Below are positions 2,546 through 58,640 of a stretch of DNA of 64,000 bases, piece after piece. The notes beneath the pieces were generated by a model. It had not been told where the DNA came from, searched no databases, and saw only the letters and a list, made by a program, of their open reading frames with translations. The stretch comes from Artemia franciscana (lineage: Eukaryota; Arthropoda; Branchiopoda; Anostraca; Artemiidae): contig NC_088866.1 in assembly GCF_032884065.1 (NCBI RefSeq), forward strand, positions 29,704,440 through 29,768,439. The letters are read 5' to 3'. Numbering within the stretch: position 1 is the stretch's first letter; each line of letters begins with the position of its first letter. The position numbers and the translations under genes were made by a program.

Positions 2546-4413
2546 GTTTTTGATCCTAAAAATTGCATAAAATTGGAATATTGGAGAGGGGGCGGGCATC
2601 CTCGAGATTCTCCTATTGTTGGCACCTCCAGTCAGAATCTAGCCAAATTGATGTGTCTTTTTTTTGTTTTGTTTTTTACAGGAACGGCAAGGACAAGCCT
2701 CTCAATATTTCAATTGTTTTGACCAAAACAACTAGGATAAAAGGGGAAGGTTCCTGATTCCTTCCCTCCAAGGCTCAAAATGGCAAACATATTTGTAGGA
2801 AAAATTAATTTATTTTTCTTCAGCCTTTCTTCAGCTCTGGAAATTTCTTCACCTCTTCTGCTAAAAAGGAAAGAAAAACTAAAATAGCTTTTCCGATTAA
2901 TCATTTTTCCACTTGTTCGTATACGCCAGCTTTCCCTTGTTGTCAGTATTTAATCGATGATACTGTACCTGAAGGACTCAAGTTAAATGCTATCAATCCC
3001 CCCGGATCAGGATTTTAATATAATCTCCTAAATGTCTCATTTACCTCATTTTTTTTAATTTAGACTGCCCCCCCAAAAAAAAAACACCGCTCCCTTCCAA
3101 CAGAATCAATTCATGCATAAGTGTCTGTAACTAATTTTTAACATTCCTGTAGTAGTAGTTCTTACACAACTATATTATTTTGCAATGCTATAAAGAAATA
3201 TGGTTTTTATTTTCTTTTATTAACCGTAAAGGTTGTCATATCGTGACCATAATTGACAAGATTCAAAAGTACGGCATCAATCTTTAAAACTAACATGCTA
3301 CTAAAATGATTACATTTGGATTGTTTCTTACGCTTCGTGAAATCAAGAGTCTAATTAATCTTCGCATTATGTCTTATTGGGAAGGCGATCTAAGAGAAGA
3401 GATGGTTCAAAATCAACGAAACTTGATGAGAGACGACTGATGATATTCTTGTTTTGGCTTTCAACGGTTCCAACCAACTTGACCTCTCTATAGAGGGTTA
3501 TATAAGTTCTATTCAATAAGGATATCTACAAAGAGAAGATATTCAATCTCAACCAACTTAATTAGATGAAACAGTTAATTTAATGGTAACTTTTTATCAG
3601 AAACTAGAACTGTTTAGACCTCCTAGGAATGGGGGGAGGGTCTGAAAATTCCTGTCATGTGTATGTCTACTAGAAGGGGACATCAAATCAAAGCCAAGAT
3701 TGGGGGAAGTAAGAGATAGAATCATAATTTTGACTTTCTAGGGTGCGGTCCTGACTTGAGCTCTGGTGGCCGATAAAGGTTACAAAGCTTTTCTAGTGCC
3801 AGCCTAATTACTAAGTGAACTGGCGCAATTTAGTCTAACCTAATATATACATTTATGGTTTCGATTGACCCTAGCTGAGTGAAGGAACGCTGTGTATTAA
3901 TTGAAGCATGGATTAGAAGTTAGGACTTAATTGTTTGGTTAAAGGGTTTGGGGATGGCCTTATATCTTGCAGAATATTAAAAGCAAGAAGTAAGTGCAAT
4001 ATGGGCATTCAGGTGATATTTTATTTTCGCTATGTTGGTATGATTGTAAATCAACAAATTCAAAGATGGCCCAAGGAAGTCATCCAAGATTGTCACGTAA
4101 AGAAAAACAGCAACAAAACATAAAATTTGTGGTCACAATTATCTACAAAAAGCAGTATTCGGTTTATTCACTTTATCGCTAACATTTATTTCCAGAGTTA
4201 TCTAATTCTGTGGTAAACGAAAAGCACGATAGGGAGGGGTGAAGTTCCCCCCGTAATATATATTCTTTTGCATTACTTCACACCTTTGAATCTCCTGTCA
4301 AAGTTGCTGCAGCTCTTCACGGAGTCCTGGCACCGGAGGGTATATTTAGTAGCTGTTCAAACAGCTATTTAATGATTAAGTTTATATTCTCAATCACCGA
4401 AAATCTTTTTCAG
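2546..4413. other. Intron sequence, nothing recognised
   Basis: AT-rich sequence between the decayed exon copy and the intact giant exon. Short frames at 2710-2904, 3935-4123 and 3994-4182 have no splice context or family resemblance. The last bases, ending TTTTTCAG at 4413, are the acceptor of the giant exon. Confidence 0.5.
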
Positions 4414-6951
4414 GTGGCCGAGCCCGACGAAATTATTCACATAACCGATTTACCCTTAGTTCGCTCTTCATCAAACGCTTCTTCCGATTTTGTCGATATT
4501 CCTGAGCAAAGGGAAGGAGATTTCGAAGACATTGATAAGTCGCAAGATACGATTTTTTTAGCTGCAAACCGTCAGCTAGACGAAGAGTCTGAAGAGATGG
4601 ATCAAAAACGGGTTTTATCTCTTCCAACAAAGGAGGATTATGAACGAGAAGAAGAAAGAATTGATCACATGAAACATGAAAGTCAAGAACGACTAAAGGC
4701 GTCAGGAGAAGAAAGAATATCGGATCGCAATCTGTTGGAAAAAGCAAAAGGCAATGAGGCAGCAGAGTTTCTCGGAATACCAGAGGAATATCGAATAGAT
4801 AAAAAATTAAGCTCAGAAGATATCCTTCATCAAGATCCACTGATATTAAACGTCGGATCTCATTTACAGCATCAGCGAGATGATGAGAATGAGCAGATTG
4901 AATATGAACGAACTCATGATTTTACAGGAGCTCCCAGAGAAGAAAATCTGAAGGGAAATGAGAAAGAATCAAATATTCAAGAAAATAAACCGGAAGTTTC
5001 AAATAAACCAATGAAGCCTGTTTTGTCGCTTGAATCTGATAAAAAGGAAACCAGTGCACCCCACAAGTTGAAAACTGAAGGAAAAAAGCAGAAGAAAAAT
5101 CAAACAAAAAATGAATCACCTGAAACGTACGCAACTGTGACATCAACAGAAAAATGTAATAGAGGGAAGCATGTACGTCCTTCTGGAGGAAAGGTTTCTT
5201 ACAATCCAATCAGCGCTAAAGAGCTTCAAGAAACTAGAAAAATTAACCCAGATGTAAATGCTGCTGATCATAATGAGATTGGAACCCCACAAGATCATAG
5301 TCTACAGAATGAAATGGAAGCAATAAAAGAACATGCACAGAGTCAGATGCTCAGTTTCCAGTCTCAGGTAAATGCTGAATCCAAGGAACCACCAGTTATT
5401 AAAACAGCTACACAGCCTTTTGATCATTTATCGCCCAAAGATCCCGAACATCATGAAATTGGAGGCCCAGGTGAGCATAAATTAAAAGACGTATTGAAAG
5501 ATATAAATGAAGAAGCACAAGAACAGATGCTACAAGCAGAGGCAGCTTTTCATCCCAAAAATATATCTGAAACTGTAAAATCTGAAAGAAACGAGCTACC
5601 TTCGGCAGAGACTGCAAATATTCCTCCAAAGCAGCAAGAACACAGCGAAATCGGAACAATTGAAGAACATGAATTAAAGAATGAATTTGAGAATGTAAAA
5701 GAAGAAGCACAAGAGCAGATGAAAGAATTTGAAAATAAGGTAGAACAAACCTCAGTTCCATCCAAAACTGCTCCAATTAAGAAAAAAGAAATAGCTGAGC
5801 TCGTGAAGGCCCCTTCTAAGATCTTGCCAAAAGATATTGAAGCCAATGAATCTGGAAGTGCTGAAGAACACAAATTAAAAAATGTTATGAGGGAAGTATA
5901 CGATGAATTCCAGAGCCAGATGAAGCAATTTGAAACAGCAGTCGGGTCCGATACTTCGCGCAAGTCCCAAGAAAGGGAAACTGTAGATGTTCCACCTAAT
6001 CAACAAAAACATGGCGAAACTGGAACAATTAATGAACAAGAGTTGAAGAAAATGCTTAAAAGTTCTAAAGAAGAAGCAAGAAAATGTGATGACGAAACTT
6101 CTCCACAAAAAAGAAAAGATGCAGCTAATAAAGGAAGCAATGTAGACATAGGATTTGAAAAATTGAACAGAAAAGCTGAAGGAAATAGCTCTGAGGCTGA
6201 TAAACAAATCAGCCAAGGAGATTCCAAGTCTTCAGAACAAGAGAATTTTGAAGAAAAGCACAAAAAAGAAACCGTATATCCAGAAAAAGTAAGAAAAAGC
6301 CACGTAAAAAGTCATCCCTTGAAAAAAGAGGAACAGATTGCAGTTGATGTCCCCACTATAAAGGAAAAACCAGATGCCGGCTCGTTAATTCGCAGAGATC
6401 TGAAGAAAGGAATTAAAAAAGATATTGAATTTGAAGGATTGAAGAGAAAAACAGAAGAAGAGCAGCAAAGAGAATTTGGTAAGAAATCCTCAAGTCGAGG
6501 TGTAATAGAGCATAAGTCTGAAAAACCTGAGAAAAGTGACGAAGATGCAAAGGAAGCAGAAAAAAATAAAAAGCTTCTTAGTTTTGAAGATATGAAAGCA
6601 GAAGCATCTCGCTTTCAACTAGACCAATCTAAAGGAGAACCAGTCCACATTGCGCGAAGTGAAGAAAATATCAAAGAAATTTGTGAGGATATTGAGCGTG
6701 TTTGTGAAGAGATGGAACTTATGTCAATTGAACATCCAATGGAAGAAGACGCGGATGAAGCTACAGAGAGAGAGGTGGCAATACAACTAATCGACAAAAA
6801 TCCCAGTGTTAATCCTGCTGAGATCATGGATGTTTTCAAAAAGTTGAGTTCCTTTGCAGAGAATACAGCATCTGAAGCGGGGTCTGAAGGCATTCATCAT
6901 TCGCCTTTAGAGAGTGTCCCTGTTCAAAGGAAAAGACGAAACGATACCAAT
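4414..6951 (+). CDS. Giant internal exon: charged, repeat-bearing segment of the PAT-like gene
   Basis: The exon starts after the acceptor CTTTTTCAG and ends at AAT|GTAAGT. It is 2538 nt, 846 codons, phase 0 at both ends. An ATG lies upstream at 4372, but it sits inside the intron before a strong acceptor, so translation probably enters from exon A. The product is rich in Glu, Lys, Gln and Ser and has almost no hydrophobic core, so it is predicted to be disordered or helical. Residues about 286 to 558 of the exon hold five repeats with the pattern H-x-E-I-G-T-x-E-E-H-x-L-K-N, then E-E-A-Q-x-Q-M-x-x-F-E. The C-terminal third is Lys/Glu-rich with an acidic stretch (IEHPMEEDADEATERE). It is followed in frame by the exon at 12416. 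No known family is recognised for this part; a scaffold or surface-coating role is only a guess. Confidence 0.85.
5269..6085 (+). repeat. Five tandem protein-coding repeats of about 56-67 residues
   Basis: Repeat starts (HNEIG, HHEIG, HSEIG, the degenerate ANESG, and HGETG) lie at 5269, 5452, 5641, 5842 and 6010, so the units are 183, 189, 201 and 168 nt apart. Each has an E-H-x-L-K-N-like core (the fifth reads E-Q-E-L-K-K), then an acidic helix-like part with Q-x-Q-M (lost in the fifth). The varying spacing and third-position differences show the array is old and kept at protein level. Every spacing is a multiple of three. Confidence 0.85.
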
Positions 6952-7202
6952 GTAAGTACTAAGCTTTATTTTACGTTTGTTTTATTTTAAATCTAAAAAT
7001 GAATATTAATATCGATTGTTAAAAAGGAATAGAAAACAACTTCTAGATTTAGTGTTTTTTCTTATAAACTTCTCATTTCTTTTGAAATATTCTGGTCGTC
7101 CACAATTATTGTGATCCATACTTTTTGCATAACTCTTATAATATTTCTTATGGCTGCTATAGCTCAAATTCTTCTATAGTTCATAATTCTTCTATAGTTT
7201 AT
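6952..7202. other. Start of the intron after the giant exon
   Basis: It begins with the donor GTAAGTACT. AT-rich, with no other feature before the modular repeat element. Confidence 0.6.
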
Positions 7203-41878: not shown

Positions 41879-41899
41879 GATATAAGAGCTTGAAAAAAT

Positions 41900-44800
41900 A
41901 TGAACAATCAAGACAACCAAAACGTTCCTATAGAAGCTCAAGATGATACGCATTTTGCGGAGAGTGATTCCACGGTAAATTCAGTATTCACCGATAATTC
42001 TGAACTTGCAGACGTAAATTCTCCTGGTGCTTCTCTGGAAAGTGATTTCCTGAAGATTGCAACCATTTTCAGAACAGAAAAAGAAATTATTATTGAATCT
42101 GATCGTCAGGTTGCGTTGCAACTTTCAGCAAAAATCTCAATAAACAGTGATGATTTTTCAACAGCAGTTCAAGAAGAAAACATAGCAACTGACAGAGAGC
42201 TGAGTCCTATTTTAGAAAGTAACAACGACAAAACTGATGAAAGAGACCCTTTACTCACACCTGGACCTTCAGAAAAGCTTATAATAGAAGATATTAAATT
42301 AGAAGGAGACTGTATTTCTCAAATTAAGATTGAAGAACTGGTTAAAAGTAGGATTGAAACAACTATTAAAGATGATTTCAATGAAAATACCACGGGGAAT
42401 GTGCCTCAATTCAACAAAGGGCCCCAGAGAGGAAATGAAAGCTTTATCGAAAATCTTGATACGAGGTTAGATACTCTTGAATATAATACGATTCCCAAAT
42501 TAAACACGCAAAATAATATCGAAATGAATGTTATTGTTGATAAGTTAAACAAACAAAAGCAAGCTCACTCAGAAAATGGAGCAAAAACTGAAAACGATGA
42601 GATTGTTCAAAACGCTACTGATTGTTTAGAATCAGACTCCCAAGTACTTATGAGCAAGAAAAATAGTGGGAAAATGATTGATGTTGTAGGTGATTCAGCC
42701 AAAGAAGAGCGAACTCTCTTTGGGATTTCTCAAAGCTCACTCAGAGAAACTGAACGAAAAATAGAGAAAGAAGACGCGGTCGAAAATACTACTGAATGCA
42801 CAGAATCAGAATCCCCAATAATTTCAAACGCAAGAAATAATGGCGAAACGCCTGATACTGTCGATGATACAAACGAAGAAGAGCGGATTATTTCTGGGAT
42901 TTCTCAAAGCTCACTCAGAGAAACGGAACCAAAAATCGAGAAAGAAGAAGTGGCTGAAAATGCTACTGAATGTGAAGAATCAGATTCCAAAGTACTTTCA
43001 AACGAAAGAAATAATGGCGAAACGACTGATACTGTGGGTGATTCAAGCGAAGAAGAGCGAACTCTCTTTGGGATTTCTCAAAGCTCACTCAGAGAAACTG
43101 AACCAAAAATAGGGAAAGAAGATGCGGTTGAAAATACTACTGAATGCGCAGAACCAGGCTCCCCAGCAATTTCAAACGAAAGAAATAATGGCGAAACGCA
43201 TGATATTGTCGATGATTCAAATGAAGAGGAGCGATCTCTCTTAGAGATTCCTCAAAGCTCACTCAAAGAAATTGAAGCAAAAACAGAGAAACAAGACGCA
43301 GTTGAAAGAACCACTGAACGTGTGGAATCAGGCTCCCCAAAACTTTCAAACGAAAGAGATAATGGCAAAACGAATGATGCTGTGGGTTGTTCAAATATGG
43401 AAGAGAGAGCTCGCTCCAAGATCTGTCGAAGCTCACTTAGAGAAGTTGACGCGAAAACTAAAGAAGTAGACGTGGTAGATGATCCAACTGAAAGTCAGTT
43501 CAGACAATCGAGTTCACCATATTTGAAAAATAAGGAAGATGTCCTTATTGAAACGAAAGTAGCTGATCCCATTCTGACAACTGGAGTACCAGAACATGCT
43601 GCGAGCCCAAATGAAAAAGAACAACAGGGATGCACTTATGACAAGGCAGAGGCAATATTAGCAGAAAGCCGGCAGAATAATGGAGATAAGAAAGTCAAAC
43701 ATCAAAACCCTGAAATTGAAAATAAAGCAAACTCAAACAACCAATACTTTAATGATGAAACTATTGGGAATCTTAAAGTGGTTAAAATGACAGGCTTAGA
43801 AGTAGGGAATAGTTCAGAACCTCCGCTTTTTAACGGGAATATTAACGAGGGCATTACAAAAATGGAAAACGGATATTCTTCGCCTGCTACTAAAGCAATT
43901 GATAGCGAAGTAGACGAAAGAATGGACAAAAATGATGGTTATGTCAAAGGCCAGCCAAGTTCTTCTTTTGAAGGTGTGGAGCCACAACAAACTATCTTAG
44001 AAAATAAGCAAGATGGGATTCAAAACATGGATTTTTATTTAGAGCCAGAAAAAACTGAAAACAATGCAATGCAAAAGAAAGATAATTCAGCAGATTTTTC
44101 TAAAGTTTCTGCTGATAATTTTACACTAACATGTAAGAAAGAAGAAGAATATTCTAAGAGCCCTGGAACAGCCTATAATGAAACCAAACAGCAGCCAAAA
44201 TTCTCTGCTATTTCGAGGAAACCTGAGGCAATCGCTTCTAAGTCCGCTAGAAGTGAAAAAGAACAGTTAAAAATAAAAACGTGGGAAAAGGCATTGCCAG
44301 TAGACAGTATCGTCTTGATATCTCCTAAGCTGGTACAATCAGTTTCAGATAAAGACCAAGGCACAATTCCTGCAATTGGTGAAGAAGGCAATAAAGAACA
44401 AATCAGAAGCATAAGTTTTAATAACAATGATCTTCATGTTTCCAAAAATAATGCAAGGGAAATTACTGAGATTTCTGGGGAAACAGATCCAGAAGACGGA
44501 AAAACTGGTTCATTTAACAAAGCTATAGATAGTGATAATTCTTTACTTCTACCATTTGAAAACTCTTTAGAAGAAGGAAGATCTACTCTTTTACTTCCTG
44601 TCACAACTAAAGAATCAAATAAACGCTCTATGTTAATGGATATGGAACACTTAAAGGGCTGTGAAACAGACGACAAATTAAACAAACTGCAACTTGAAGA
44701 AGGAATTGAAAAGACGACAGAACCACTGAATTACTCTGGGACTGTGCATGAGGCACCTACGACTGATAATTCGTCTTTTAAAAAGCCTATCAATGAAGAT

Positions 44801-46543
44801 AATAATGAAATACCTAAAGGGGGGACTAGCAAAGATATTTCTATATCGAAAAGTACTTCTCGTGAAGAAAATAAAAACAAAAGTAAAAACGCTTGTTTTA
44901 ACAAAAAAGGCGCTGATAGGTCTCGTACTCATGATAGGTCCGGTGATGCTGTAGAAACACCAATAACCATGGAAGATACCTCGGACACAACGATGAATAT
45001 TTTATCTGAATATAGTCCTAACACGGCCCAAATTTTAGAAGAAAATGTCGACCAGGAAACTTCCAAGTCCGTTATGCTAGAACTGCAGAGTGATTCAGAT
45101 AATAAAGAGGATTTTCAAACGATAAGTCCAATGAATCCAGTAATTCAGAATTTCAAGGAATCAGAAAAAAAATTAGGTGAAGAAATGTCCAACGGGAATG
45201 AAAGGGAATCTAAGGTACTATCTTCCAAAGTACCTTTTGAAAAAGATGATAACTCTTTTGCTACTGAAGCTCAGACAGAACTATATGAAGAAGAAGCTGA
45301 GCAAATTGCAAAAAATAACGATGTTCAAGTATCTTCAGAAAATTTGACAAACTTCGAAACTTATAAAAATATGTCCTCCGACTTTAAAAATTTAGTTAGG
45401 ACTGCAGTTGACAATATTGAAGATGGGACAAAATATGGCATCAAGTTGAATGAAAATTTAAATCCACTGAATATCGTAGCTAAAGAGGGGCAAGAAACCC
45501 AAATTTTATCTGAACAGACAGCTCAAAGACTTGACAACCCAGTTGAAACTGGCAGTAGTACAATGTTCAGTGTGGATTCCTTCCAAACAGTGACTGAAAT
45601 AAAAGAGACCATGGAGTTAGGATTACCATCTGAAAATGCTGAAGATTCTTATAACGAATCACAAAATGAATGTGATCAGAAATCTTGCCATATTAAAGAT
45701 TTTCCGAACTATGGAAACGTAAATGATATTATTGCTGCAAGAACTATAAGGACAGTTGAAGAAAGAGCAATGGACTTGAATCTTTCCTCAAAAACGTTGA
45801 ATCAAGTAGAAGTACTGCAACAGAAAGTCGGGATTGGAGGCAAAAGTGAAGTAAAAGAGTTAGTTAATGATCACAACGGAGCCAATGAATCCCCTAAAAT
45901 GACCGTTGAACATACTGACGGAGATAGCATAGTGACTTCCATCAGCGATGATTCACCTGAAGTGCCGGTTATTGAAGATGCTGAGATACAAGATTCAGTG
46001 ACCAAAACTGAAATGAGAGAAAGTTTTGGAGCCAACGAAATTGGATCAGAAGTACGCACTCAACCATTGAACCAACTTCTCTGTTGTGACAATTCAGATA
46101 ATAATGAGAGTATTTACAAAACAGAAAAAAGTCCGATTGAAAATTTTATACAATTCGAAGCATTTAAAGAGTTGGAAGCAATAAATAAAAAGATGAATTG
46201 TATGGCTGGGACTGAAAATGCCATTCTTGATCCCGAATTAGACACAAATAAAACATATGAAAGTGATTCTAAAGACAATATTTCAGCCTACCAGAACAAC
46301 AAATCCCCAGTGAAACCACTGATATTCATAGTTTCACCTGACGTTTCTTTCCTTGAGACTACGGATACCTACGAGTCTCAGAATGAGAGCAGAAACAGTA
46401 ATTACAATTTTGAGGAAGATGATTCTTATTCAGCCCCTGTTGGTACCAATTCAGATGACGATCAAGATATGAGTCAGAATTGTGTCATGCCCATTGCCCT
46501 TTTGATCACCCCAGAATACTTTAGTTACGCAGGAGGAATTTGA
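41900..46543 (+). CDS. Large acidic repeat-bearing protein, 1547 residues, unknown family
   Basis: A single open frame from ATG at 41900 (A at -3) to TGA at 46541-46543. An in-frame TGA at 41891-41893 sits just after a good acceptor (TTCTTTCTAG, ending 41878), so 41900 is the likely start on a transcript with an upstream untranslated exon. The protein is rich in Glu, Asp, Ser, Asn and Lys, has no membrane segment or recognisable fold until its end, and is probably disordered. Five perfect-period repeats of 58 residues occupy about residues 240 to 530 (core EERTLFGISQSSLRETEPKI). The C-terminus turns hydrophobic (VMPIALLITPEYFSYAGGI). TTTGAG|GTAAGA at 46562, after the stop, could be a donor for a 3' untranslated intron. 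It shares composition and repeat style with the giant exon at 4414 but no clear sequence. It may be a separate gene or an alternative product of the same locus. Confidence 0.8.
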   Translation: MNNQDNQNVPIEAQDDTHFAESDSTVNSVFTDNSELADVNSPGASLESDFLKIATIFRTEKEIIIESDRQVALQLSAKISINSDDFSTAVQEENIATDRELSPILESNNDKTDERDPLLTPGPSEKLIIEDIKLEGDCISQIKIEELVKSRIETTIKDDFNENTTGNVPQFNKGPQRGNESFIENLDTRLDTLEYNTIPKLNTQNNIEMNVIVDKLNKQKQAHSENGAKTENDEIVQNATDCLESDSQVLMSKKNSGKMIDVVGDSAKEERTLFGISQSSLRETERKIEKEDAVENTTECTESESPIISNARNNGETPDTVDDTNEEERIISGISQSSLRETEPKIEKEEVAENATECEESDSKVLSNERNNGETTDTVGDSSEEERTLFGISQSSLRETEPKIGKEDAVENTTECAEPGSPAISNERNNGETHDIVDDSNEEERSLLEIPQSSLKEIEAKTEKQDAVERTTERVESGSPKLSNERDNGKTNDAVGCSNMEERARSKICRSSLREVDAKTKEVDVVDDPTESQFRQSSSPYLKNKEDVLIETKVADPILTTGVPEHAASPNEKEQQGCTYDKAEAILAESRQNNGDKKVKHQNPEIENKANSNNQYFNDETIGNLKVVKMTGLEVGNSSEPPLFNGNINEGITKMENGYSSPATKAIDSEVDERMDKNDGYVKGQPSSSFEGVEPQQTILENKQDGIQNMDFYLEPEKTENNAMQKKDNSADFSKVSADNFTLTCKKEEEYSKSPGTAYNETKQQPKFSAISRKPEAIASKSARSEKEQLKIKTWEKALPVDSIVLISPKLVQSVSDKDQGTIPAIGEEGNKEQIRSISFNNNDLHVSKNNAREITEISGETDPEDGKTGSFNKAIDSDNSLLLPFENSLEEGRSTLLLPVTTKESNKRSMLMDMEHLKGCETDDKLNKLQLEEGIEKTTEPLNYSGTVHEAPTTDNSSFKKPINEDNNEIPKGGTSKDISISKSTSREENKNKSKNACFNKKGADRSRTHDRSGDAVETPITMEDTSDTTMNILSEYSPNTAQILEENVDQETSKSVMLELQSDSDNKEDFQTISPMNPVIQNFKESEKKLGEEMSNGNERESKVLSSKVPFEKDDNSFATEAQTELYEEEAEQIAKNNDVQVSSENLTNFETYKNMSSDFKNLVRTAVDNIEDGTKYGIKLNENLNPLNIVAKEGQETQILSEQTAQRLDNPVETGSSTMFSVDSFQTVTEIKETMELGLPSENAEDSYNESQNECDQKSCHIKDFPNYGNVNDIIAARTIRTVEERAMDLNLSSKTLNQVEVLQQKVGIGGKSEVKELVNDHNGANESPKMTVEHTDGDSIVTSISDDSPEVPVIEDAEIQDSVTKTEMRESFGANEIGSEVRTQPLNQLLCCDNSDNNESIYKTEKSPIENFIQFEAFKELEAINKKMNCMAGTENAILDPELDTNKTYESDSKDNISAYQNNKSPVKPLIFIVSPDVSFLETTDTYESQNESRNSNYNFEEDDSYSAPVGTNSDDDQDMSQNCVMPIALLITPEYFSYAGGI
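42606..43500 (+). repeat. Five coding repeats of exactly 174 nt
   Basis: The codon for the first Glu of EER falls at 42704, 42878, 43052, 43226 and 43400, four identical spacings of 174 nt. The core is ISQSSLRETEPKIEKEDAVE followed by SNERNNGET. The first units are very similar at DNA level; the fifth has diverged (KICRSSLREVDAK). The constant period and high identity point to recent unequal exchange. Confidence 0.92.
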
Positions 46544-47134: not shown

Positions 47135-49338
47135 CGTACAGGAAGCTATTGAGCCACCAAGTAGTGTCTAGGGTTAATTTGAAGCTGGCATTTCGGAAGG
47201 GTAACTACCTCCTGGGAAGTTATGATGTTGTTAGACTCCAGGATGAAAATTTGAGAGAAACTTCCCAGGAACAGTTGAATACTAAACTGGAGAGTTTAAA
47301 ATTTGACAATGCGGGAAATGGTTGGAATAATTTTAGAAAACCATTTTTGAAGTTGCTGATGGTATCTTAGGAAAGAAAGTTAAGACTGCAGCTAGGAATA
47401 TTAGTGGAAAAGCTTTATATTTAATAGAGAGGAAAAAGGGCTTGTACAAGAATTATCTGATTGATAAATTATATGAAAACAAAAGGAATGTAGAGAAAGA
47501 GGTGAAAGCATTAAAATATGAACTAAGGATGTGTGAATTTTAGGCCATGGATAAAATTGCCGAGGATCTGGAAGATGAAGTTAGATGAAGTAAAATATTG
47601 TACTGGCAGTTAATAAATTTAGAGGGAGTAGTCAATCTGGACTTGTCCCAATCAAATATAGGAACGGGGCCACAATTAGTGATAAGGAAATTCTTAAAGA
47701 GAGATGGGTGGAACATTTTGAGAATATGCTGAACCGAGATACAGTTGCAGGAAAAAATATAGAGAAAAATAAAAGTTTGTGATACCTTGGATTTGGAAGA
47801 AGTTTTTGTCTTGTGAGAAGAATTAGCGACGGTGCTAAAAAATAAAAAAAATAATAAGGCTTCGGGTGCTGATAGGGTGGTAAATGAGTTTCTTAAATAT
47901 GGTGGCTCTGAGATTAGAAATAAGTTAGTGAAGATTATGCATATGATTTTTAAAAAGGGAGAAGTACCTAACGGTTCTATGAAAACCTTAATTAAACCAC
48001 TGTATAAGAAAGGTGATAAGAATGAGTGTCGTATTGAGGCAAATTACTTAGTAATATGTTATACTTACATAGTAGGTAGCAAATTACTTAGTAAGATGAT
48101 ACTTTTTAGACTGAGAGATGCTGTAGACAAAGTTTTGAGAGAAGAACAGTACGGTTTTAGAAAAGGTAGAGGATGTGTCGACCAAATTTTCACTCATAGG
48201 TTAATAATAGAGAAGTGCCCTAGTTGTCAAACACCTTTCGTCCTCAGTTTTATAGATCATGAGCAAGCGTTCGATTATGTTGATAGAAGAGCTTTAAGCA
48301 AAATCATATCATTGTATAGTATACCGGACAAATAACTCAAAGTGATTCGTGCTATGTGAGAAAATAGCTGCGGTTAAGGTAGGAAATAAGGTTAGCAGCT
48401 GGTTTTGTATTAAATCAGAGTTAAGCAGGGATGTGTTCTATCCCCCTTTATGTGGATCATTTTGATGGACTTTGTCTTAAGGAGCATAGGAAAGGCAATG
48501 GGAGATCACGGAATCAAATGCACAGGAAAAACTAGTCTGGATTTAGATTATGCTGATGATTTAAGCATCCTAGATGAAAGTGTGAGCAAAATGAATGAAT
48601 TTTTAGAGGTTTTGCGAGTTCAAGGTGCTAGAATAGGTTCGAAAATTAACGTTAAGAAGATTAAGTCACTAAGACTGGGAATAAGTGAAGATGAAAGGAT
48701 GACGTTAGGTAACAAAAAGATTGATCAGATGGACAGCTTCACTTACCTTGGTAGTATTATTAGTAAAGAAGGTAAGAGCAGTGAAAATGTTAAAAGTAGA
48801 ATAGTCAAGGCTCAGGGCGTTTTTTCATAGTAAAAAAAAGTTTGGAAGAATAGGAAGATAAGTCAGCAAACCAAGAATAGAATATTGGAAGGTACAGCGA
48901 TAACAGTGCCAAATATGGCTTTGAAGCATAGGCGCTTCGAAAGCGGATGAAGATTTACTAGATGTTTTCCAGAGAAATTGCCTACGGATTGTTCTGGGTA
49001 CCCAGCTGACTGACCGTATTTCAAACAGTAGGCTCTGTGAAAAATGTAGCTCAATCTTATCACTATAACGAAAGAAAGGTTGAGACGGCGAGGGCTCGTT
49101 CTCCGGGTGAAGAATGACAGATTGTCCTTGTCGGCCAACCGTCTAGGGCTAAACAGAAAGCAGGTCGTCCCCGTCTGGGGTGGGAGGATGTCATAAAGAA
49201 AGATTTAAAAGAAATGGGAACTTCTTGGGAGGGCGTAAAGAAGGAGGCTTTGAATAGATTGGGATGAAGGAGGAGCGTGCGTAGCTGTGTTGGCCTTAAG
49301 CGGCTTGGTGGTGCGGTGAGTTGTTAGTAGTAGTAGTA
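47135..49338 (+). mobile_element. LINE with near-complete but broken reverse transcriptase
   Basis: From left to right it reads: pre-RT (VSRVNLKLAFRKGNYLLGSY), NISGKALYLIERKKGLYKNY, RT fingers and palm (NNKASGADRVVNEFLKYGGS, LIKPLYKKGDKNECRIEANY, EEQYGFRKGRGCVDQIFTHR, LSFIDHEQAFDYVDRRALSK), the catalytic LDYADDLSILDESVSKMNEF near 48545, then YLGSIISKEGKSSENVKSRI, and a decayed C-terminus. The 3' end carries GTTAGTAGTAGTAGTA. At least three frame breaks (near 47370, 48335 and 48830) make it inactive. The endonuclease domain is absent, so it is 5'-truncated. It is the longest member here of the TAG-tailed family. Confidence 0.9.
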
Positions 49339-51384
49339 TACATTACATTTGTAGAAGAGTTTTAGTTTTTGGTTCGAAAATATATCTTATCTTTTAACTG
49401 GCGTATTAATGAGCTGTCAAAAAAATTTTTACCAACATTTATTGCAGTTGCAGGTAGTGTTGCAAAATGACTGGTATAAAACGGCGCAGACGCAAACGCA
49501 ATAAAGCACACGCCGATTATCAATCAAAAATGCACCAAATATGGAATTTTATACAACATTGAAATTTTTTTCAGAAAATATGCTTATTTAAAGAATTCAG
49601 TGCACACCCACCTAAAAGTCAGCCGAATGCATCCCAGCTGACAAAACCAGTTCAAGGGAAAATTTTATAGAAGTGAGTTAATTCGAAAATCTTTCATATG
49701 TTTATTTTTCAGAGGCGTATTCTCCAAAGTCAAGCATGAAGTTTGGCTCCGAAGAATAACATTTTTTTTCAATTATGGTTCATGGTTTTAATAAATAGTT
49801 GGGAATCGGTATTTATTCACTTTGTTTTTGGCAATTATGTTAGTTTCTGTAAGCGATATTTAATGAAAAATTATGTCAATACTTACAATGATAAATGAAT
49901 TTACAACAAATATAAATTACAACTAATACAAAATCATTACAATTACACTAAATTCGACAATGCAATAACCTTAACCAAACAAAGTAGCACCGCGCAGGCA
50001 CTAGTATCGACAAACAAACCAACGCCATCTAGGGTCTGATGTTTCTTGGCTTTTTTATTACAATAATAAGGCGAAGCTAGTGCAGATGGTATAATCAATA
50101 CGGGAGCACATGGCTGATTTTGGTTTCTGAAAAAAAAAAATGAAGCTTGAAAAAAAAAATTCCAAATGCTAGCTAGCGTTGGTGATTTTTTTTGTCGACT
50201 TTAACACCAGTTTCCACTCTTCAGAGTTACCCATACGATTTGGTCCAAACTTTTAAAGGCTTATCTAGGATATCGCGGGTTGTATAAGTCACCAACTATT
50301 CGATACCGTTCTTTAGCTTTTGGAAAATCCAAAATATTCTATATTCAGAAGCTTTTGGGCGAAAATCCTCCATGGATAACACCAATTTTAAAGTGACCAA
50401 ATTCTGGTGGCGGTTCTAAGCCTGGGCAGAAATTTTCTGACATTGAATTTCTTTTAACTTATATTTTACAGTCCTATAGTTTACCTTGCCCCCCCCCCAG
50501 ATTATAAGGCCCAAAACCACTACTGCTATGTTCATTAAAATATATGATAATATCAAGCAGAAAAATGCGCAAGAGTTGAGATTATAAAGAGCTTCTGATG
50601 ATAAAGTATAATCTTGAAAACTTAATAAATACTGTTATTAATATTATTAGAGGCATGAAATTGGCTTGTTGCTGATCGAATATCACCAGACCCATCTTGC
50701 CACCAATGGGTAGCAGAAGGGTAGATATGTAATACCATATTGAATCGAAGAAATATATTTAATTAGTATGGTTTTAGAGCTAAAGCGGTCTTAAGGCCCG
50801 TTCCAATTCACCCCGAGCTTTTTAGCACAAAGACAAGCATATTCAAACCCTTTTAGAAGCGGAGAGAGCACAACTTCTTTTTAGATGTATGATTAGGTGC
50901 CCAAAATGGTTCCTTCATCCTTCAAACACTCCCTTTTCCATCTCCTACTATTTAACAGAAAGGTGGACATAGTTACAACTTTAAAAATAAAAAACGAACA
51001 ATGATTTTCATTTTGTATGATTTTATACATAAAGTCAAAAAATGACTTCAACAACAACCTCCCCTCTTTCAACCAGCTTCCCAGTAGAAAGGTAGACACA
51101 TTGCATCAGGCGCTACGATTTCTCGTTAATTTTTTTTAATCGTTCATGTAACTGAATCTTATTTTTACACTACGGAACAATAAAGTTTTCGTAACTCAGA
51201 CGACTTGGAATAACGCCAAAATTGGCCACTGTTATCCAACCCTGGTGGACTAAACCCTTCATTAACTCATACATCTTAGTTACCACCTTGCCGCAGCAAT
51301 CTTTTTCCAGTCAGACAAGAATTCAAATTTCAAGTTACAGCCCTTTTGAAGAATAAACCAAACGAAACCTCTTCCAGAAATCAA
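49339..51384. other. Intergenic sequence between the LINE and the end of RpL10
   Basis: AT-rich. No gene or RNA is supported; small frames near 50893-51099 are chance. Confidence 0.45.
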
Positions 51385-51390
51385 TTTATT
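51385..51390 (-). terminator. Poly(A) signal AATAAA of RpL10
   Basis: Minus-strand AATAAA 35 bases after the stop codon at 51425-51427. This is a normal short 3' untranslated region for a ribosomal protein gene. Confidence 0.8.
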
Positions 51391-51424
51391 TGTATCTCAT
51401 CAAAAACAAAACAATTGATTCCAA

Positions 51425-51592
51425 TTACATCTGGTGAACTTGCACCATCCATTTTTTCCAGTTGGTGAGTGGGCCATGGTTGGGCCTGTACTTAACGTTT
51501 GCGCCATCAGGTTCGAGCTGGTGGTTCTCCTTCATCTCTTCGTAGACGGGACGTTCGAATTTGGTGAACCCCCATTTCTTTGAAACATAGAT
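51425..51592 (-). CDS. RpL10: Ribosomal protein L10 (uL16), last coding exon
   Basis: The minus strand reads TTTTAG|ATC, then IYVSKKWGFTKFERPVYEEM and 34 further residues to a TAA stop. The KWGFTKF motif followed by a Lys/Glu-rich helix and DGANVKYRPNHGPL is the C-terminal part of uL16, which sits in the central protuberance region of the 60S subunit near the peptidyl-transferase centre. The tail (NWKKWMVQVHQM) is longer than the vertebrate WRALHS type, in keeping with an invertebrate. Phase 0 start matches exon 4. A poly(A) signal follows within 40 bases. Confidence 0.95.
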   Translation of the reverse strand: MYVSKKWGFTKFERPVYEEMKENHQLEPDGANVKYRPNHGPLTNWKKWMVQVHQM

Positions 51593-51723
51593 CTAAAAGC
51601 AAATAGAGAATAGAGATTATGACACAAAAGTAAATAAAAAAAATAAAGGAGTCAAAAGTGCAATCCCGAAATAAAAAACTGAATTCCGACATGGACTATT
51701 TTTAAAGCCAAATGAATAGTTTT

Positions 51724-51850
51724 TCTTGTCAGGAGGGTGAAATAGGCAGTTCTTCAAAGATGAACTGCCATTGGAAATCTCCTCAATTATCTGGCACTAC
51801 CCTTTGTCACTACTTTATAGATAAAGTAGTAATTTTTTGTACAGTGCTTT
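51724..51850 (-). ncRNA. Box H/ACA snoRNA, copy 1, in RpL10 intron 4
   Basis: Two hairpins joined by an H box and closed by an ACA box, on the host gene's strand. The 5' hairpin has outer stem GCACT/AGTGC and inner stem CTACTTT/AAAGTAG. The H box is AGATAA (ANANNA). The 3' hairpin has outer stem AGGAG/CTCCT and a perfect upper stem GGCAGTTC/GAACTGCC. ACA lies 3 nt before the proposed end. The 3' pocket offers TCCAA on the left and ATTTCACC on the right, complementary to 18S rRNA GGTGAAAT-U-C-TTGGA, with the unpaired U 14-15 nt from ACA, as the family requires. The predicted role is guiding pseudouridylation of that U with dyskerin (Cbf5). Confidence 0.85.
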
Positions 51851-52351
51851 TCTGCAAGTCAACGACAGTAATTAAGCAACGTGAGTTGTTCATGGACAAT
51901 GAGTGAATTAATTTCTTAGACGTTACTGGTTTTACATTTTTGAATAAAGGGAAAATATATAAATAAACAAATTAGAAAGCAACTGCCTAGAGTTTAGAAA
52001 AAAAAAAACAATACAAAATTCTGAGTGACAAGGGGTGGGAAAAACCGTGATATACGAAATACACCTTCCAATAGAAGATTCAAATCAAATATACAGCGTT
52101 TTATAGAAGCTGCTATTGAAAACCTCAGGCCCCGCCCCTACGGACACCCTTTTTAGTTTTCCTTTAAGAGCTAGGTGAAACACCCATCTTATTTATCATT
52201 GATGGCAACTTTAAAATAGCAAAAAGCATAAAAAAAGACACGTATCTTTTTAGTTTAGTCAGCAATGCAAAAATTTAATTTTGACGCAATTCATTTCCAA
52301 AACTGAACACAGGTCAAAAGAATTGAAAAATAAATAAATCTAGAACACATT
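51851..52351 (-). other. Intron 4 spacer between snoRNA copies 1 and 2
   Basis: AT-rich. Its part next to each snoRNA 3' end (GACGCAATTCATTTCCAAAA near 52284) resembles matching flanks of the other copies, so each duplicated block was longer than the snoRNA. Confidence 0.6.
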
Positions 52352-52479
52352 TTGTTGTCAGGAGGGTGAAATAGGTGGTTTATTAAAATTAAACTACCAT
52401 TGGAAATCTCCTCAATGTTGTAGCACTATCTTTCGTCACTACTCTATAGACAAGGCAGCGATGTTATAGATAGTGCCCT
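52352..52479 (-). ncRNA. Box H/ACA snoRNA, copy 2, in RpL10 intron 4
   Basis: Paralogue of copy 1. The outer 5' stem is GCACTAT/ATAGTGC. The inner 5' stem CTGCCTT/AGAGTAG keeps pairing by a G-U change. The H box is ACAACA, a different sequence that still fits ANANNA. The 3' upper stem GGTAGTTT/AAACCACC has one mismatch. The 3' pocket words CCAAT and TATTTCAC and the ACA spacing are unchanged. Same predicted 18S target. Confidence 0.85.
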
Positions 52480-52504
52480 ACTACAATGGGTCGAATATGG
52501 TAAT

Positions 52505-52900
52505 TAAGCACTATGAGTAGTTGAAGATAATTTCTTAAACCACATTGGCCATTGCCCAAAATCGAGTAGGTGTAGACTAGACCTTGCAACCAGCAGCTTT
52601 AAGAGCCTATCATCAATTCGGAAAAGTAAATTACTATTTAACACTCTCTTACTCCCCATTGCTTTGAATGCAAGTGAAATTTGGTCAATTAAAACTGATG
52701 ACGAAAGTCGAATCTCCGCATTTGAAACAAAATTTCTCCGTCGCATAGCAGGGATCACCTACATTGACAGAGTATCCAATGAAGACCCCTTAAACCCCTC
52801 CACTATCATGGACTGAATCAGAAGTCAGCAACTCCACTGGCTTGGTCATATCCAACAAATATCATCAAATCAACTCCCAAAAATCGCATTTGAAGAATAG
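52505..52900 (+). mobile_element. LINE C-terminal fragment, left part (split by hAT)
   Basis: Plus-strand reading gives LLLPIALNASEIWSIKTDDE, ISAFETKFLRRIAGITYIDR and LHWLGHIQQISSNQLPKIAF, the C-terminal end of a LINE protein from a different family than the TAG-tailed copies. It has one in-frame stop. The reading breaks at the hAT left end and resumes at 56049. It lies antisense in RpL10 intron 4. Confidence 0.8.
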
Positions 52901-53061
52901 CAGGGTTCGGACAGGTCGGTTCGTTTCAAATTATAGACTCTGTCCTATTTTTATAGGATTTCCCGAGCCCAAATATAGGATTTGGAAGTCTTCGGGACCA
53001 TATCTGTAGTAGATGGCGCGGGATGCTTGGTCACATACATTCGTTATTTCTCGGGTTTCTG

Positions 53062-53092
<31 letters not shown>

Positions 53093-56048
53093 TATTTATT
53101 TACTTCAAATACAAACTGTACAAATAGTAAAAACAGTAAAAAAAAATAAAAAATGATCAGATACACATGATGTGCCAACGATTGACTGCTACAGGTAAAA
53201 TACTTGGAATCACTCTTGCTTCTTCTTGGGCATCGATTTCGATATGAGGTCGGTTATTCTCTTTGCAAGAGACTGCTCCATTCTCACAAATTACACCATC
53301 TGCTCTCTTTCACCTGTTCTGGACTACACAGCTCCTTCGAGCAAAGAAACAGCTAGAGCAATGTCTATGGAACTCATGGACTCGGCAGCCTTCTTCATTC
53401 TGTCAGTCGCTTCCTGAAGTATAGTATCTACTACTGTTCTCTTTTCTTAATCTGATGATTTTTTGCTTTCCAGGTCTTCTATTTCTTTCTTTTTTTCATT
53501 GACCTCCTGCAACTTCCGCAGGTTATCCTCTTCGAAAGCTGCTTTGCCCTTCTCGGATAGCTCTTCTTTTTTCTTTTCGTCCAGATATTGTTGATACCGA
53601 GACCGTGCGGAACGTGCAAGATTCAAGAGTTCTTTTGAAATAAAAACCGTTCTGGTTTTCCTCCATAAAGTCTCAACGTGTCATATACCATGAGTCTCGC
53701 ATCCAGAGCGCGTTCAGACAAATAACGCCTGGTCTTCACCGAAAATCCTACCAGAACGCGAGAACACACATTCAATATCGGCACCACTTTGATAAGTTTG
53801 GTAAGTTCCGGGTACTTGCTGTCCCTGCGCTAATTCACCAGTCAAAAATAGTGGCTCCAAAAATGATTGATCCGAGTAATGTCCTCCCGGGGTCCAGTTT
53901 CCGTTCACAAAAGCAGCCACTCAGCCTAGGCAATGTCTGAGCTTACTCAAATCGCAATCTCGCGTACCACAAACGCTATGTCTGCAATACTTCTTGAATC
54001 TTTCATGTTGATCGGACTCAAGCAGCGTAAAGCCTCTAGAAAACCATCCTTTTACAGAAGACATCTGTTTAAAATATAGCGAATATCCGCAATAAAATGT
54101 TTTCGCACACTGGCATAGAAAATGGCCTTGTTTTTCAGTGTTGCTTTTTCACGGGAAGCTCGCTCCACATTTTCTAATACTGTGGGATTTTCTGCAAATT
54201 TTTACAGCAAGATTCAACATTTCTGGCGAGAAATTTTCTGTCTCGGTCACGAAATCTGGAGTAAAGACCCGTCCATAAAGTGTCACAACCAGTTTTTTGA
54301 TCTGCGAGTGCAGAACATGAACGAGAGGCTCTTCTTTCTGGAACAGTTGAGTGAAACTCGTGAACAGTTCTACTGAGGCTAGAACAAACTCAAGTTGCGC
54401 CTTCATCATCGCACTTCTGATGTAAGCCATAATCTTCAGAAATTTGGGAGTGGGCAGAAGTTTCTTCAGTTTTTTTCTCTCTCGGAACGAAGTTCAGGAA
54501 AGATTGCCGGCCACTGCTGCATGATCCTAGCAAGGGCACGTCCAATCGTCAGCCAGCGGCTTGGGACATGCTTTATAAAAAGCATTCTCTCACTTTATTT
54601 GGCACTTTCGATAGTCTTCACAACATGCAGGCAATCCATCAAAAAATAAATGCACAAGAATAACAAAGTCGAAACTTTCTTCTCCGAACACCTGAAGACC
54701 TTTCAAGAAAGCGTTATGGATTATATGGATGTTGCAAGTACCAATGTTCAACATTCCCTTTTCCATAAATTTCTTTCTGTCGGCATCGAACTTGTTCCAA
54801 ACGCTTTTGTTGACGTTTGGTCCGTCACTTCCAAGCATGATCAGTTTCAAGTGGCAGCTGATTCTGCTCCATGGCTGACATAATCTTCCTATACGGGTCA
54901 TCACTTGTCGCTTGGCCCATAAAACTTGTGCATGTCTGCTCTGGATTTCGTTTCCGTATGAGGATCAATATTGAGCACGTATCTGTAACTCTTTCATACC
55001 AGCGTTGTTGGTTGTCTCATCATATTCTAGTAAAGAATATGACTAAATGTCCTTCACAAGCATTTGATTAAAGTAAGGATGCAGCGCGTCGGTGATCAGA
55101 TACGGGGACTTCTCCGCACTTAGGCACATTCCGTCCCGGATCTTACTGGGGAACATCGCATGGAATGTTCCGACAGGTCTGAAGAGTCAGCAGACATGGA
55201 ACTCTGTACCGTCTGAAGTGCCCATATTAACTCAGCTTTATAAGCGGCATCACGCTCACAGAACATGTTTGTACCAACTAATGGTTTATCCTTGGATGTT
55301 TCATCAACTCGAAATTGTCCGGTCAGATGAAGCTGCAGTGGATGTAGTTGAGCAGTAACTACGGCTTTCCAAGTAGAGTTTGCAAAAGGACGAGTACTGG
55401 TCATTCCCAGTCTTACACCATTCGCCAATCTTTCTACCGCTGCAATCCGTCTTAGCAGGTCATGAACTGTTAAACTTGGTAGGCCCCATACTTAATTATC
55501 AAGCATCACTTGCAAAATAGCACCCCAAGATTTAAAGACCATAAGAAGAAAAAATGTGGATATATCCGAAACTCGGCCGTATTTGCATCAGCCTTTTAAA
55601 TAGCGTTCAGCCAGGAAATGCATAAGTCACAAGAACTCCAGTCTCATTAAGCAGAGACTGCTAGCCTATATACTGATTTTCGCTCATTTCGGACAAGCCC
55701 AACATGACAAAAAAACATAGGCTATTAAGTCAACATAACAGCATAGCCCAGGCTGAAGAAGCTTACTAAGCCCAACACAAAGCATTGGTTAAGTTCAAAC
55801 AGCTCAACTTTTGTAACTATCAATCTAGACCAAAAGAAAGCACAGTCTACAAGCAGAGTCAAAAGCAAAGAAAAGCATATCTTGGCTTACTTAATGAGCA
55901 GTGAAAATTCCAAATCACGAATAATGTTGTTAGTGCTCTTCAACCGAAAATATAGGAATAATAGGATTTTAGCCAAAATATAGGCATTTTATAGGAGTGC
56001 ATTAAAATATAGGAATTTATTGGAATTTATAGGCGATTCCGAACGCTG
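52901..56048 (-). mobile_element. hAT-type DNA transposon, decayed, about 3.15 kb
   Basis: The ends are imperfect inverted repeats, CAGGGTTCGGA and (reverse complement of the right end) CAGCGTTCGGA, with subterminal copies of TATAGGATT/TATAGGAAT clustered at both ends, typical of hAT elements. The minus strand encodes a broken transposase: FCERDAAYKAELIWALQTVQ near 55270, MLGSDGPNVNKSVWNKFDAD near 54830, LNIGTCNIHIIHNAFLKGLQ near 54740, ADIECVFSRSGR near 53780, and a Lys/Glu-rich C-terminus near 53580. Many frame breaks make it inactive. The 8-bp flanks (GAAGA-) are only partly alike, a decayed target duplication. A 29-T run lies at 53062-53090. Confidence 0.85.
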
Positions 56049-56225
56049 GAAGAGGTACATGGCACACGATCTTGCGGCCGACGCCACAAGACATGGAATG
56101 ACTACTTCAATGGCCAGAATCTTCCCCAACTCCTGCGTCTAGCACCAGATAGAACCGAATACCGTCACCATATTCAACTGGTGTGAAGTAAAGAAGTCCC
56201 AATACAGCCACAAAGGAAGGATGGC
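56049..56225 (+). mobile_element. LINE C-terminal fragment, right part
   Basis: It resumes exactly where 52900 stops: GAAGAGGTACATGGCACACG reads EEVHGTRSCGRRHKTWNDYF, then a short tail to TGA. Removing the hAT restores a continuous LINE frame, which fixes the insertion order: the LINE first, the hAT later. Confidence 0.8.
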
Positions 56226-56920
56226 ATATAAGTCAGTTAGTGTTTTTCTCTGAGTCGACAACAGTGCCTTTTGCTGAACAAAAATATTTAAAATATTTAA
56301 AGCTAACACGATGATTTGAAATGAAAAAAAATAATAGTAAAATTGACCAAAATTTATTTAATAGAGGAAGAATACCTCATACAAACAGGCATTTGAATGA
56401 GTGCACCTTCATATCTGATAGTCCAGAAATAGCCAAAAGACACACAATTCCCACAGAACAGAAAATGATAGGCAAATTTATGATTAAAACTATTATATAT
56501 ATAATAGTGTTACAGAGAAAGACTGAAATCTGGTCTCCCCCCTCCTCCTAAAGACACCATCTTTAGAGTTTTCATGTCAGAAACCGGACCATAAAATAAT
56601 AGAATAACCATCTTCATGAACATAAAATCACCAACTTATAAGTTTTGTCCGGAATACATAATTGAATGTGGTTTTACATACAATCGTAATTCAAAATAAA
56701 AAGAATTCTTGATAATATACAAAAAAAAAAATTAGCAAAATCCTCATTCCCCAACCAAAGGCCATCTTTAAGATTTTCTAGTTTCTCGAAGTTCACAAAC
56801 TTGGACCTTTTGTTTAGTTTCTGAAATACAAAAATTGAATTCCGACGCAACTAATTTCAAAACCGAAAAAGTATAAAAAAAAATCAATGCATAACATAGG
56901 AGAGGATTAAATACAGCTTT
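56226..56920 (-). other. Intron 4 sequence between the LINE/hAT nest and snoRNA copy 3
   Basis: AT-rich. The part near 56835-56920 resembles the flanks of the other snoRNA copies (GAATTCCGACGCAACTAATT). Confidence 0.5.
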
Positions 56921-57047
56921 TACTGTCAGGAGAGTGAAATAGGTACTTCTATAAAACCAAACTACCATTGGAAATCTCCCCAATTATCTAGCACTATCTT
57001 TTATCACTACTTTATAGATAAGGTAGCAATGGTTTAAATAGTGCCCT
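56921..57047 (-). ncRNA. Box H/ACA snoRNA, copy 3, in RpL10 intron 4
   Basis: Paralogue nearest exon 4. The outer 5' stem is GCACTAT/ATAGTGC, the inner 5' stem CTACCTT/AAAGTAG, the H box AGATAA and the 3' outer stem GGGAG/CTCCT-like. The upper 3' stem is weaker (GGTAGTTT/GAAGTACC). The pocket words TCCAAT and TATTTCAC are conserved; one base change (CACT for CACC) gives a G-U pair with 18S. ACA is followed by GTA. Confidence 0.8.
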
Positions 57048-57547
57048 TATCCAAACACTCAAAAACAGCAATTAACCACTGCGAGCTCTTAAAAGATGCT
57101 TGGGTGAAGTATAGATGACAAAAATAATTTTTAGACAACCCTGGCTTTGCATGTATTTTCATGTTCCAACGTGGTAGAACAGACGACACTCTGGTACCAT
57201 CCTAAAACATTACAATTTTACAACAAACGAAACAGATATATGAGAAAATCACCGTTTTCAGACATTAATAGACCTAAGACAGGTCCAAGGAGAAACAATG
57301 TATATGCGATCTATGTAAAAAGTCATAATTTTGGCTATTTGAATTACATTGAGGGTAGTACAGTGCTGTAAAGATGTCAAATACATTTATACAAACCAGA
57401 AATGATAGGATACTCGTGGAAAATCACTAAATTAATCAAAATCAGTTAAGTGCCAACCCTGCGTTTTGGTATGGTTACATAAAAAAACCAATAATAAATT
57501 CTAAAATCGTGCAACTTTTTTTTCGCACATTAATAAATGAAAAGTAC
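57048..57547 (-). other. Start of RpL10 intron 4
   Basis: Donor GTACTTTTC after exon 4, then AT-rich sequence. No further RNA was recognised. Confidence 0.6.
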
Positions 57548-57710
57548 CTTTTGGCGTCCTGGGAACTTGAATTTAGCACGACGGAGTGCCTCGATAATGG
57601 CGGCTTTGTTTTTATCAGCAGAACGGATCGAGATAATTGGCTGACCGATGCGGACTCTGGCGACAGTGCCTTGGGGCTTACCAAAAGCCCCTCTCATACC
57701 AGTTTGGAGC
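57548..57710 (-). CDS. RpL10: Ribosomal protein L10 (uL16), coding exon 4
   Basis: Acceptor TTCTTCTAG, then G completing an Arg codon, then 54 codons: [20 protein letters not shown] and on to [14 protein letters not shown], followed by GTACTT. The loop [13 protein letters not shown] is the conserved element of uL16 that reaches the peptidyl-transferase centre. [10 protein letters not shown] and [12 protein letters not shown] are hallmark segments. Phase 0 end fits exon 5. Confidence 0.96.
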
Positions 57711-58429
57711 CTAGAAGAATTATTTTAGCAAGACAGAGCAAGTTAGACATTAAGTCTGTCAGATTTTCATAAAATTTTGCAGGTGATAAGTCCACTTCAT
57801 AAGTAGCTATTTCTTTAACGCTGAATCGACACCAAAAAATAAAATAAAAATTACTACTACTCCTACTAACAATTTACTGTAACGCCAAGTCACATGAGGT
57901 CAAGACTGCTACACACACTCCTTCAGACTATCTAAAAAATCAATATCTCCCCCCTAAAAAAAACGTTATGAGAAACCACACAATCAGGATTAAGTTCACT
58001 TTGTAAAATTTACAGAGGTTTCCTATGTATATTTCAGATTCTAGCAAAAAAGACGAAAGAAAAAACCATTACTATTCAAATAAATGTAGTAATTGAACTC
58101 TAAGACAGGATAATCGAATTTCTATAAAATTGTTGAATACATTTAACAATGATAAAGCAGGTTAACTGAATAATATAAGATTTATTGCTATTGCTCACAA
58201 ATAATTATTTTTGTCAGTTTATTTTTATTCATTAAGTATGATTTAGTAATTGTCAGTTCAAGTATTTAATTCTCTTTTTATTATAAGAAAATTAATTCAG
58301 TAGCCATTGCGATATCTTGTCCTCGAGTTTCTGTAGGTATAGTCACTCTGGATAATACTTAGTGGAGCCTCCAAAAATGGTGCAAAATATGGGGATATTC
58401 TGGTAATTGAATTTACCTAGTTGGCGCAA
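57711..58429 (-). other. RpL10 intron 3, proximal part
   Basis: AT-rich. It starts at the acceptor of exon 4. No feature other than the decayed exon 2 copy that follows. Confidence 0.5.
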
Positions 58430-58640
58430 ATATGGCAAATATACGCCGGTAATAGAAATTGTTATGTTGGTGCCAATACGACCAGCCTCTAGGGTTCAGA
58501 AGTAAATTGCCAGAGACAAGATGGACACATAAAGGCAAATCTTCAAATGATGCCTTCTTTCTGCCTGAATAAATAATCCCGACCTTTTGATCAGGAGCAC
58601 GGCAGAAACAACTCTTTGAAGAAAGCTTGTTTTTGATGGA
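58430..58640 (-). pseudogene. Decayed duplicate of RpL10 exon 2
   Basis: It aligns with exon 2 at 62628-62826. GACAAGATGGACACATAAAG vs GACAAGGTGGACACATAAAG, ATGCCTTCTTTCTGCCT identical, and ACGGCAGAAACAACTCTTTG vs ACGACAGAAACGACTCTTTG. It keeps an exon-like edge at the splice-donor side (TTACCTAGTTGGCGCAAATA) but has an insertion near 58440-58470 and broken frames. It sits inside the intron after exon 3, so it cannot take part in the normal transcript. Confidence 0.88.

Follow-up and report, generated by a model that had tools for sequence, protein, structure and literature searches.

In human, the box H/ACA small nucleolar RNA (snoRNA) SNORA14A, hosted by POR, guides modification of U966 of 18S ribosomal RNA (rRNA) (PMC9886955), and SNORA14B, hosted by TOMM20, is listed for the same base, in helix 23 (PMC7072173). 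In this work, we focused on a 64,000-nt stretch of the Artemia franciscana genome (NCBI RefSeq assembly GCF_032884065.1, contig NC_088866.1, positions 29,704,440 to 29,768,439 of the forward strand; hereafter the window, in whose own numbering positions are given), where one intron of the ribosomal protein gene RpL10 (minus strand, 57547-51593, 5,955 bp) hosts three H/ACA snoRNA-like copies. We consider, with a probability of about 0.88, that these are three paralogous genes for box H/ACA snoRNAs, of the same guide type as SNORA14 (18S-Psi966), predicted to pseudouridylate U919 of the 18S rRNA. The anatomy of the copies, their fold, their target match in the rRNA of the same genome and their uneven conservation were established directly; from these we infer their expression, their assembly into small nucleolar ribonucleoproteins (snoRNPs), the rRNA modification and purifying selection as the reason for the uneven conservation.

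The term intronic gene cluster denotes several snoRNAs within one intron, and a paper by Huang et al. 2004 is, by its title, reportedly devoted to box H/ACA snoRNA. In animals, one snoRNA per intron is the main rule (PMC11028025), as the initial annotation of this locus had it, but intronic gene clusters are on record for rice and Drosophila (PMC2780460), and we regard several snoRNAs in one animal intron as an uncommon, already-known arrangement rather than a new one. The Artemia locus resembles these clusters in that snoRNA genes (here three, all predicted) are grouped within an intron; it differs in that the three are paralogues of one guide, in a ribosomal protein intron enlarged by transposable elements. 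Another Drosophila case, Nop60B, has four isoforms of one C/D snoRNA with one gene per intron (PMC1821038). As regards the host, ribosomal protein genes commonly carry snoRNAs; in fly, 27 of them do so (PMC2246290). An H/ACA RNA also occupies the corresponding host gene in human, i.e. SNORA70, which we take to lie in an intron of RPL10. Its target is not the same, as the initial annotation had anticipated: SNORA70G is listed for 18S U1692, not for U966 (PMC7072173).

A repeat finder run over positions 50500-58500 returned a single direct-repeat family with three copies, located at 51716-51888, 52345-52517 and 56913-57085 (68%, 100% and 77% identity to the reference copy, respectively). The corresponding predicted RNAs all lie on the minus strand, which is that of the host: copy 3, the 5'-most in the intron, at 56921..57046 (126 nt), copy 2 at 52353..52478 (126 nt) and copy 1, the 3'-most and 131 nt from the 3' splice site, at 51724..51850 (127 nt), both the 5' end and the 3' end (ACA + 3 nt) being placed by convention. 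Unconstrained folding led to a hairpin-hinge-hairpin-tail arrangement in each copy. The hinge holds an H box conforming to ANANNA (AGATAA, ACAACA and AGATAA in copies 1, 2 and 3), an ACA box is present in 3/3 copies, and 14 nt, counted by reading the sequence, separate the free U of the 3' pocket from ACA. Fold z-scores were -4.07, -3.90 and -2.01 for copies 1, 2 and 3, with 0, 0 and 9 of 200 shuffles folding equally well. The initial annotation had reported three two-hairpin copies with an ANANNA H box on the host strand of one RpL10 intron, with a pocket 14-15 nt from ACA; the repeat finder, the folds, the alignment, the flanking RpL10 exons and the counted spacing all agree with it. Its ACA box was likewise found in every copy, but the 3 nt from there to the RNA end are set by convention, and the size of 127-128 nt given for the RNAs becomes 127, 126 and 126 nt under that same convention. 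A covariance model built from the three copies did not add a fourth to them within the window: none of its five further matches there exceeded 22.5 bits, and the top three among them were on the other strand, overlapping copies 1 and 3 or next to them.

For the target scan, a 15-base 18S pattern was used to locate the ribosomal DNA of the genome; it hit 23 places, of which a minority were examined, and Rfam recognized one full-length 18S at L021:2061-3869 (1658 bits). A simple scheme devised for this analysis served to score the uridines in this 18S, in the 5.8S and in a 4,952-base segment treated as 28S, of which Rfam confirmed only the start. The top-ranked scanned uridine was the same for the three copies, 18S U919 in GGTGAAAT[U]CTTGGA, with scores of 30, 30 and 27.5 for copies 1, 2 and 3. 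The 3' pocket pairs with GGTGAAAT and TTGGA while U and C stay free, so that two guide arms and a free UN about 14-15 nt from the box were found in 3/3 copies against their own 18S. In copy 1, the downstream arm TATTTCACC (51736..51744, minus strand) contains ATTTCACC, which pairs with 18S GGTGAAAT, and the upstream arm ATTTCCAAT (51770..51778, minus strand) contains TCCAA, which pairs with 18S TTGGA. None of 300 shuffles of the copy-1/2 pocket reached 30 (mean of maxima 19.8, 95th percentile 24.0, top 27.5).

The pairing of the pocket with these two 18S segments, U and C unpaired, had been proposed in the initial annotation, and the scan of the 18S bears it out. The human number suggested there, about 918-920, has to be corrected: 919 is the number in the Artemia 18S, and the same U is presumably base 966 in human, according to the human 18S sequence used here, in which 24 of 25 pseudouridine positions taken for a check fall on U (position 166 does not). 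The fly names Psi18S-920 and Psi18S-996 found no mention in the literature searched. The statement that the three copies have the same 3' pocket holds for copies 1 and 2; the pocket of copy 3 has one C to U change. The 5' hairpin was also considered as a second guide and set aside: its best targets differ by copy, and the top scores of 14.0, 16.0 and 18.5 lie below the mean shuffle maximum of 19.8, a control that is unmatched here, the shuffles having been built for the longer 3' pocket.

Conservation among the three copies is distributed unevenly. Whereas 34 of 92 columns vary elsewhere, the guide core, made up of the 3' pocket, the lower stem and the tail, has 2 variable columns out of 32 (Fisher p 6e-4); the upper stem and loop of the 3' hairpin vary at 12/25 columns and the 5' pocket at 5/10. 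Both changes in the core belong to copy 3, one being A to G, by which a lower-stem A-U becomes G-U, and the other the C to U just mentioned. When the named structure was laid on the three-row alignment, 94.9% of 99 cells held standard pairs, a proportion that dropped to 34.3-54.5% when the structure was slid by 1-3 columns, and 3 pairs had changed on both sides. Purifying selection would have maintained the guide core while the remainder drifted.

A covariance-model scan had been put forward in the initial annotation, and the Rfam SNORA14 model (RF00397) scored copies 1, 2 and 3 at 25.4, 20.5 and 31.2 bits, respectively. SNORA14 is the first-ranked family for copies 1 and 3 (E 0.0043 and 0.00018) and the third for copy 2, but every score falls below the cut-off of 36 bits. 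Like SNORA14A and SNORA14B, the Artemia RNAs are two-hairpin H/ACA RNAs, and in the alignment of copy 3 with the model both pocket arms fall on the family's own arms, UCCAA and AUUUCA. They also share the same target U in helix 23, as predicted by base pairing only, namely with the Artemia 18S, the human equivalent being read from the human 18S sequence used here. They differ from SNORA14A and SNORA14B in their host, RpL10 instead of POR and TOMM20, in their sub-cut-off scores and in that three copies share one intron. SNORA14 is thus the nearest known RNA that we found, although below the cut-off; we regard the Artemia RNA as SNORA14-type by function, and orthology with SNORA14 as likely.

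Several observations weigh against this assignment. At the curated gathering cut-offs, Rfam gave 0 matches in the window, so that the link to the SNORA14 family rests on sub-threshold scores; copy 2 scores higher with SNORA50 (24 bits) and SNORA55 (20.7 bits) than with SNORA14; and chance SNORA14 matches under the cut-off turned up in 6 of 14 microbial genomes used as controls. A genome-wide SNORA14 search yielded no match at E <= 10, these copies included, which says little because only 41 of 71,003 candidates were scored. With regard to structure, the fold of copy 3 is less exceptional (z -2.01), and the covariation is weak support, since the alignment has only three rows and 47 of 500 shuffles match the observed covariation and pairing. 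With regard to the target, the C to U change of copy 3 turns a guide-duplex G-C into G-U, its score of 27.5 is also that of the top-scoring shuffle out of 300 (all made from the copy-1/2 pocket), and a second 18S pairing exists at U1127, scoring 25, 25 and 22.5 for copies 1, 2 and 3, the value of 25 lying above the shuffle 95th percentile.

These weaknesses bear on how many of the copies work. Just one or two of the three might be functional, the others being intact-looking pseudogenes, a possibility that deserves attention while staying on the unlikely side: each copy has one or two mismatched stem positions, copy 3 combines the weakest fold with the G-U in its guide duplex, and decayed paralogues are present elsewhere in the genome. 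However, despite 36 variable columns out of 124, all three copies have kept the boxes, the lower stem and the pocket. By contrast, four copies lying in a dispersed block described below have 3, 3, 3 and 11 of 32 core positions changed (counts that are not mutually independent; for the copies outside the intron, one alignment is of poor quality in its 5' part). A main target elsewhere, e.g. 18S U1127 or a non-rRNA site, with the U919 match secondary, appears improbable. U1127 does score 25 with copies 1 and 2 and 22.5 with copy 3; U919 nevertheless outscores it in all three copies and is the base that SNORA14 RNAs target, and the U1127 pairing, as we read it, requires one mismatch per arm. U1127 presumably lies close to the sites of the human pseudouridines 1174/1177.

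Under the interpretation as three U919 guides, the copies would be transcribed within the RpL10 pre-mRNA, followed by splicing and lariat opening, and the H/ACA core snoRNP proteins would protect each element during its release from the intron. The 3' hairpin pocket, ATTTCCAAT/TATTTCAC(C or T), would bind 18S GGUGAAAU...UUGGA and thereby position U919 (human U966, helix 23) for conversion into pseudouridine by dyskerin/Cbf5. The 5' hairpin is probably structural, without a conserved pocket. Obtaining three RNAs from one intron would need an internal cut to form the inner ends, because exonuclease trimming of the debranched lariat alone should not free three copies; otherwise, one RNA would be produced per lariat.

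The relationships among the copies argue for local DNA duplication, within the intron, of a unit that included flanking intron sequence, and not for retroposition, because the 5' flank is also common to the copies. Copies 3 and 2 have 273 bp in common (57080-56808 / 52512-52249), with flank to either side of the RNA; for copies 2 and 1 the shared stretch is 173 bp, and for copies 3 and 1 it is 164 bp, together with a detached block of 24 bp in the 3' flank. The gap of 4,442 bp between copies 2 and 3 is occupied by a terminal inverted repeat (TIR) element (52901..56048, no strand assigned), hAT-like by eye, situated inside a remnant, also recognized by eye, of a long interspersed nuclear element (LINE); these two copies were therefore probably closer together in the past. 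The inverted ends of the TIR element begin with CAGGGTTCGG and CAGCGTTCGG, i.e. its termini read CAGGGTTCGG.../...CCGAACGCTG, and neither three frames within it nor one frame of the adjoining LINE remnant had a match in Pfam.

Searches of the genome with copies 1 and 2 as queries found at least 8 places in total, 7 in one search and 8 in another: the three in the RpL10 intron, four on C8 and C4 and one on C13, counts that are lower bounds and could miss relatives of copy 3 only. The four on C8 and C4 are arranged pairwise within a ~5.6-kb block common to both (93-96% identity), which contains about 810 bp of the RpL10 intron at 81-82% identity, with decayed copies 1 and 2 (L008:4585-5353 and L009:4888-5676, on C8 and C4). 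This block is probably a mobile element or a dispersed duplication. Its identification as a Helitron, based on an open frame read by eye, was dropped, no Pfam helicase being found in five frames. Each of the five outside copies has copy 1 or copy 2 as its best match and brings along part of the RpL10 intron flank, hence they derive from RpL10. A dispersed repeat with a chance rRNA-complementary stretch and no guide role is the least credible account: five further copies do occur on C4, C8 and C13, four of them in a block present twice, and the C13 copy too keeps its core, but copies 1 and 2 retrieved so few places, the outside copies stem from RpL10, and conservation among the RpL10 copies centres on the guide core.

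The C13 copy (C13:13874121-13874316, i.e. L010:4922-5117) is a retroposed copy of copy 1, with 174 bp between 11-bp target-site duplications. It is flanked by two perfect TTGATAATTGA, a match given by 0 of 5,000 random placements. Compared with copy 1, 0 of 32 core positions and 6 of 95 others have changed; two 5'-hairpin pairs that are intact in copy 1 are broken, and the copy may be in decay though its guide core is whole. Its start lies only a few bases from where copy 1 should have its 5' end, and it extends about 50 nt beyond the ACA box. It resembles snoRNA retroposons, being a snoRNA plus 3' intron sequence between target-site duplications, and differs from them by having no visible poly(A) tail and only about 50 nt of 3' flank. 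It is likely the fossil of a copy-1 RNA that was reverse-transcribed with its 5' end already processed and its 3' end still extended, and is the one observation here that bears on expression, although only indirectly; alternatively, chance 5' truncation during retroposition could have set its 5' end. A release of all three copies from the intron by endonucleolytic separation, with the C13 copy as the fossil of a cut-and-trimmed intermediate, is a rather doubtful proposal, which we base on the fact that the C13 copy begins near the presumed mature 5' end of copy 1, on the side towards copy 2, and has an extended 3' end.

Taken as U919 guides, the three copies supply a candidate guide for a single conserved modification of rRNA, in a genome that has no such annotation here. 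They suggest that the host gene of the 18S-Psi966 guide may vary, from POR and TOMM20 in human to RpL10 in Artemia, and they offer a natural three-copy case for studying the release of several snoRNAs from one animal intron. The understanding of the H/ACA class is unchanged by this well-built, ordinary member.

The host intron (51593..57547, minus strand) is of the GT...AG type, with GTACTT at its 5' end and TTTTAG at its 3' end, and interrupts the coding sequence between ...FKFPGRQK and IYVSKKWGF.... The exon upstream of it (57548..57718, minus strand) matches PF00252, L16p/L10e (E 1.9e-12), and was matched once when the 1.27-Gb genome was searched with only the best candidates scored. The last coding exon, with the stop codon (51425..51592, minus strand), has a translation beginning IYVSKKWGFTKF... 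and by itself had no Pfam match. Elsewhere in the window, two long single open frames, rich in charged residues, lie on the plus strand at 4243-6990 (915 codons) and 41894-46543 (1,549 codons), neither with a Pfam match at E 0.01. Finally, reverse transcriptase fragments are found at 47817-48830, where PF00078 was detected in two open frames.

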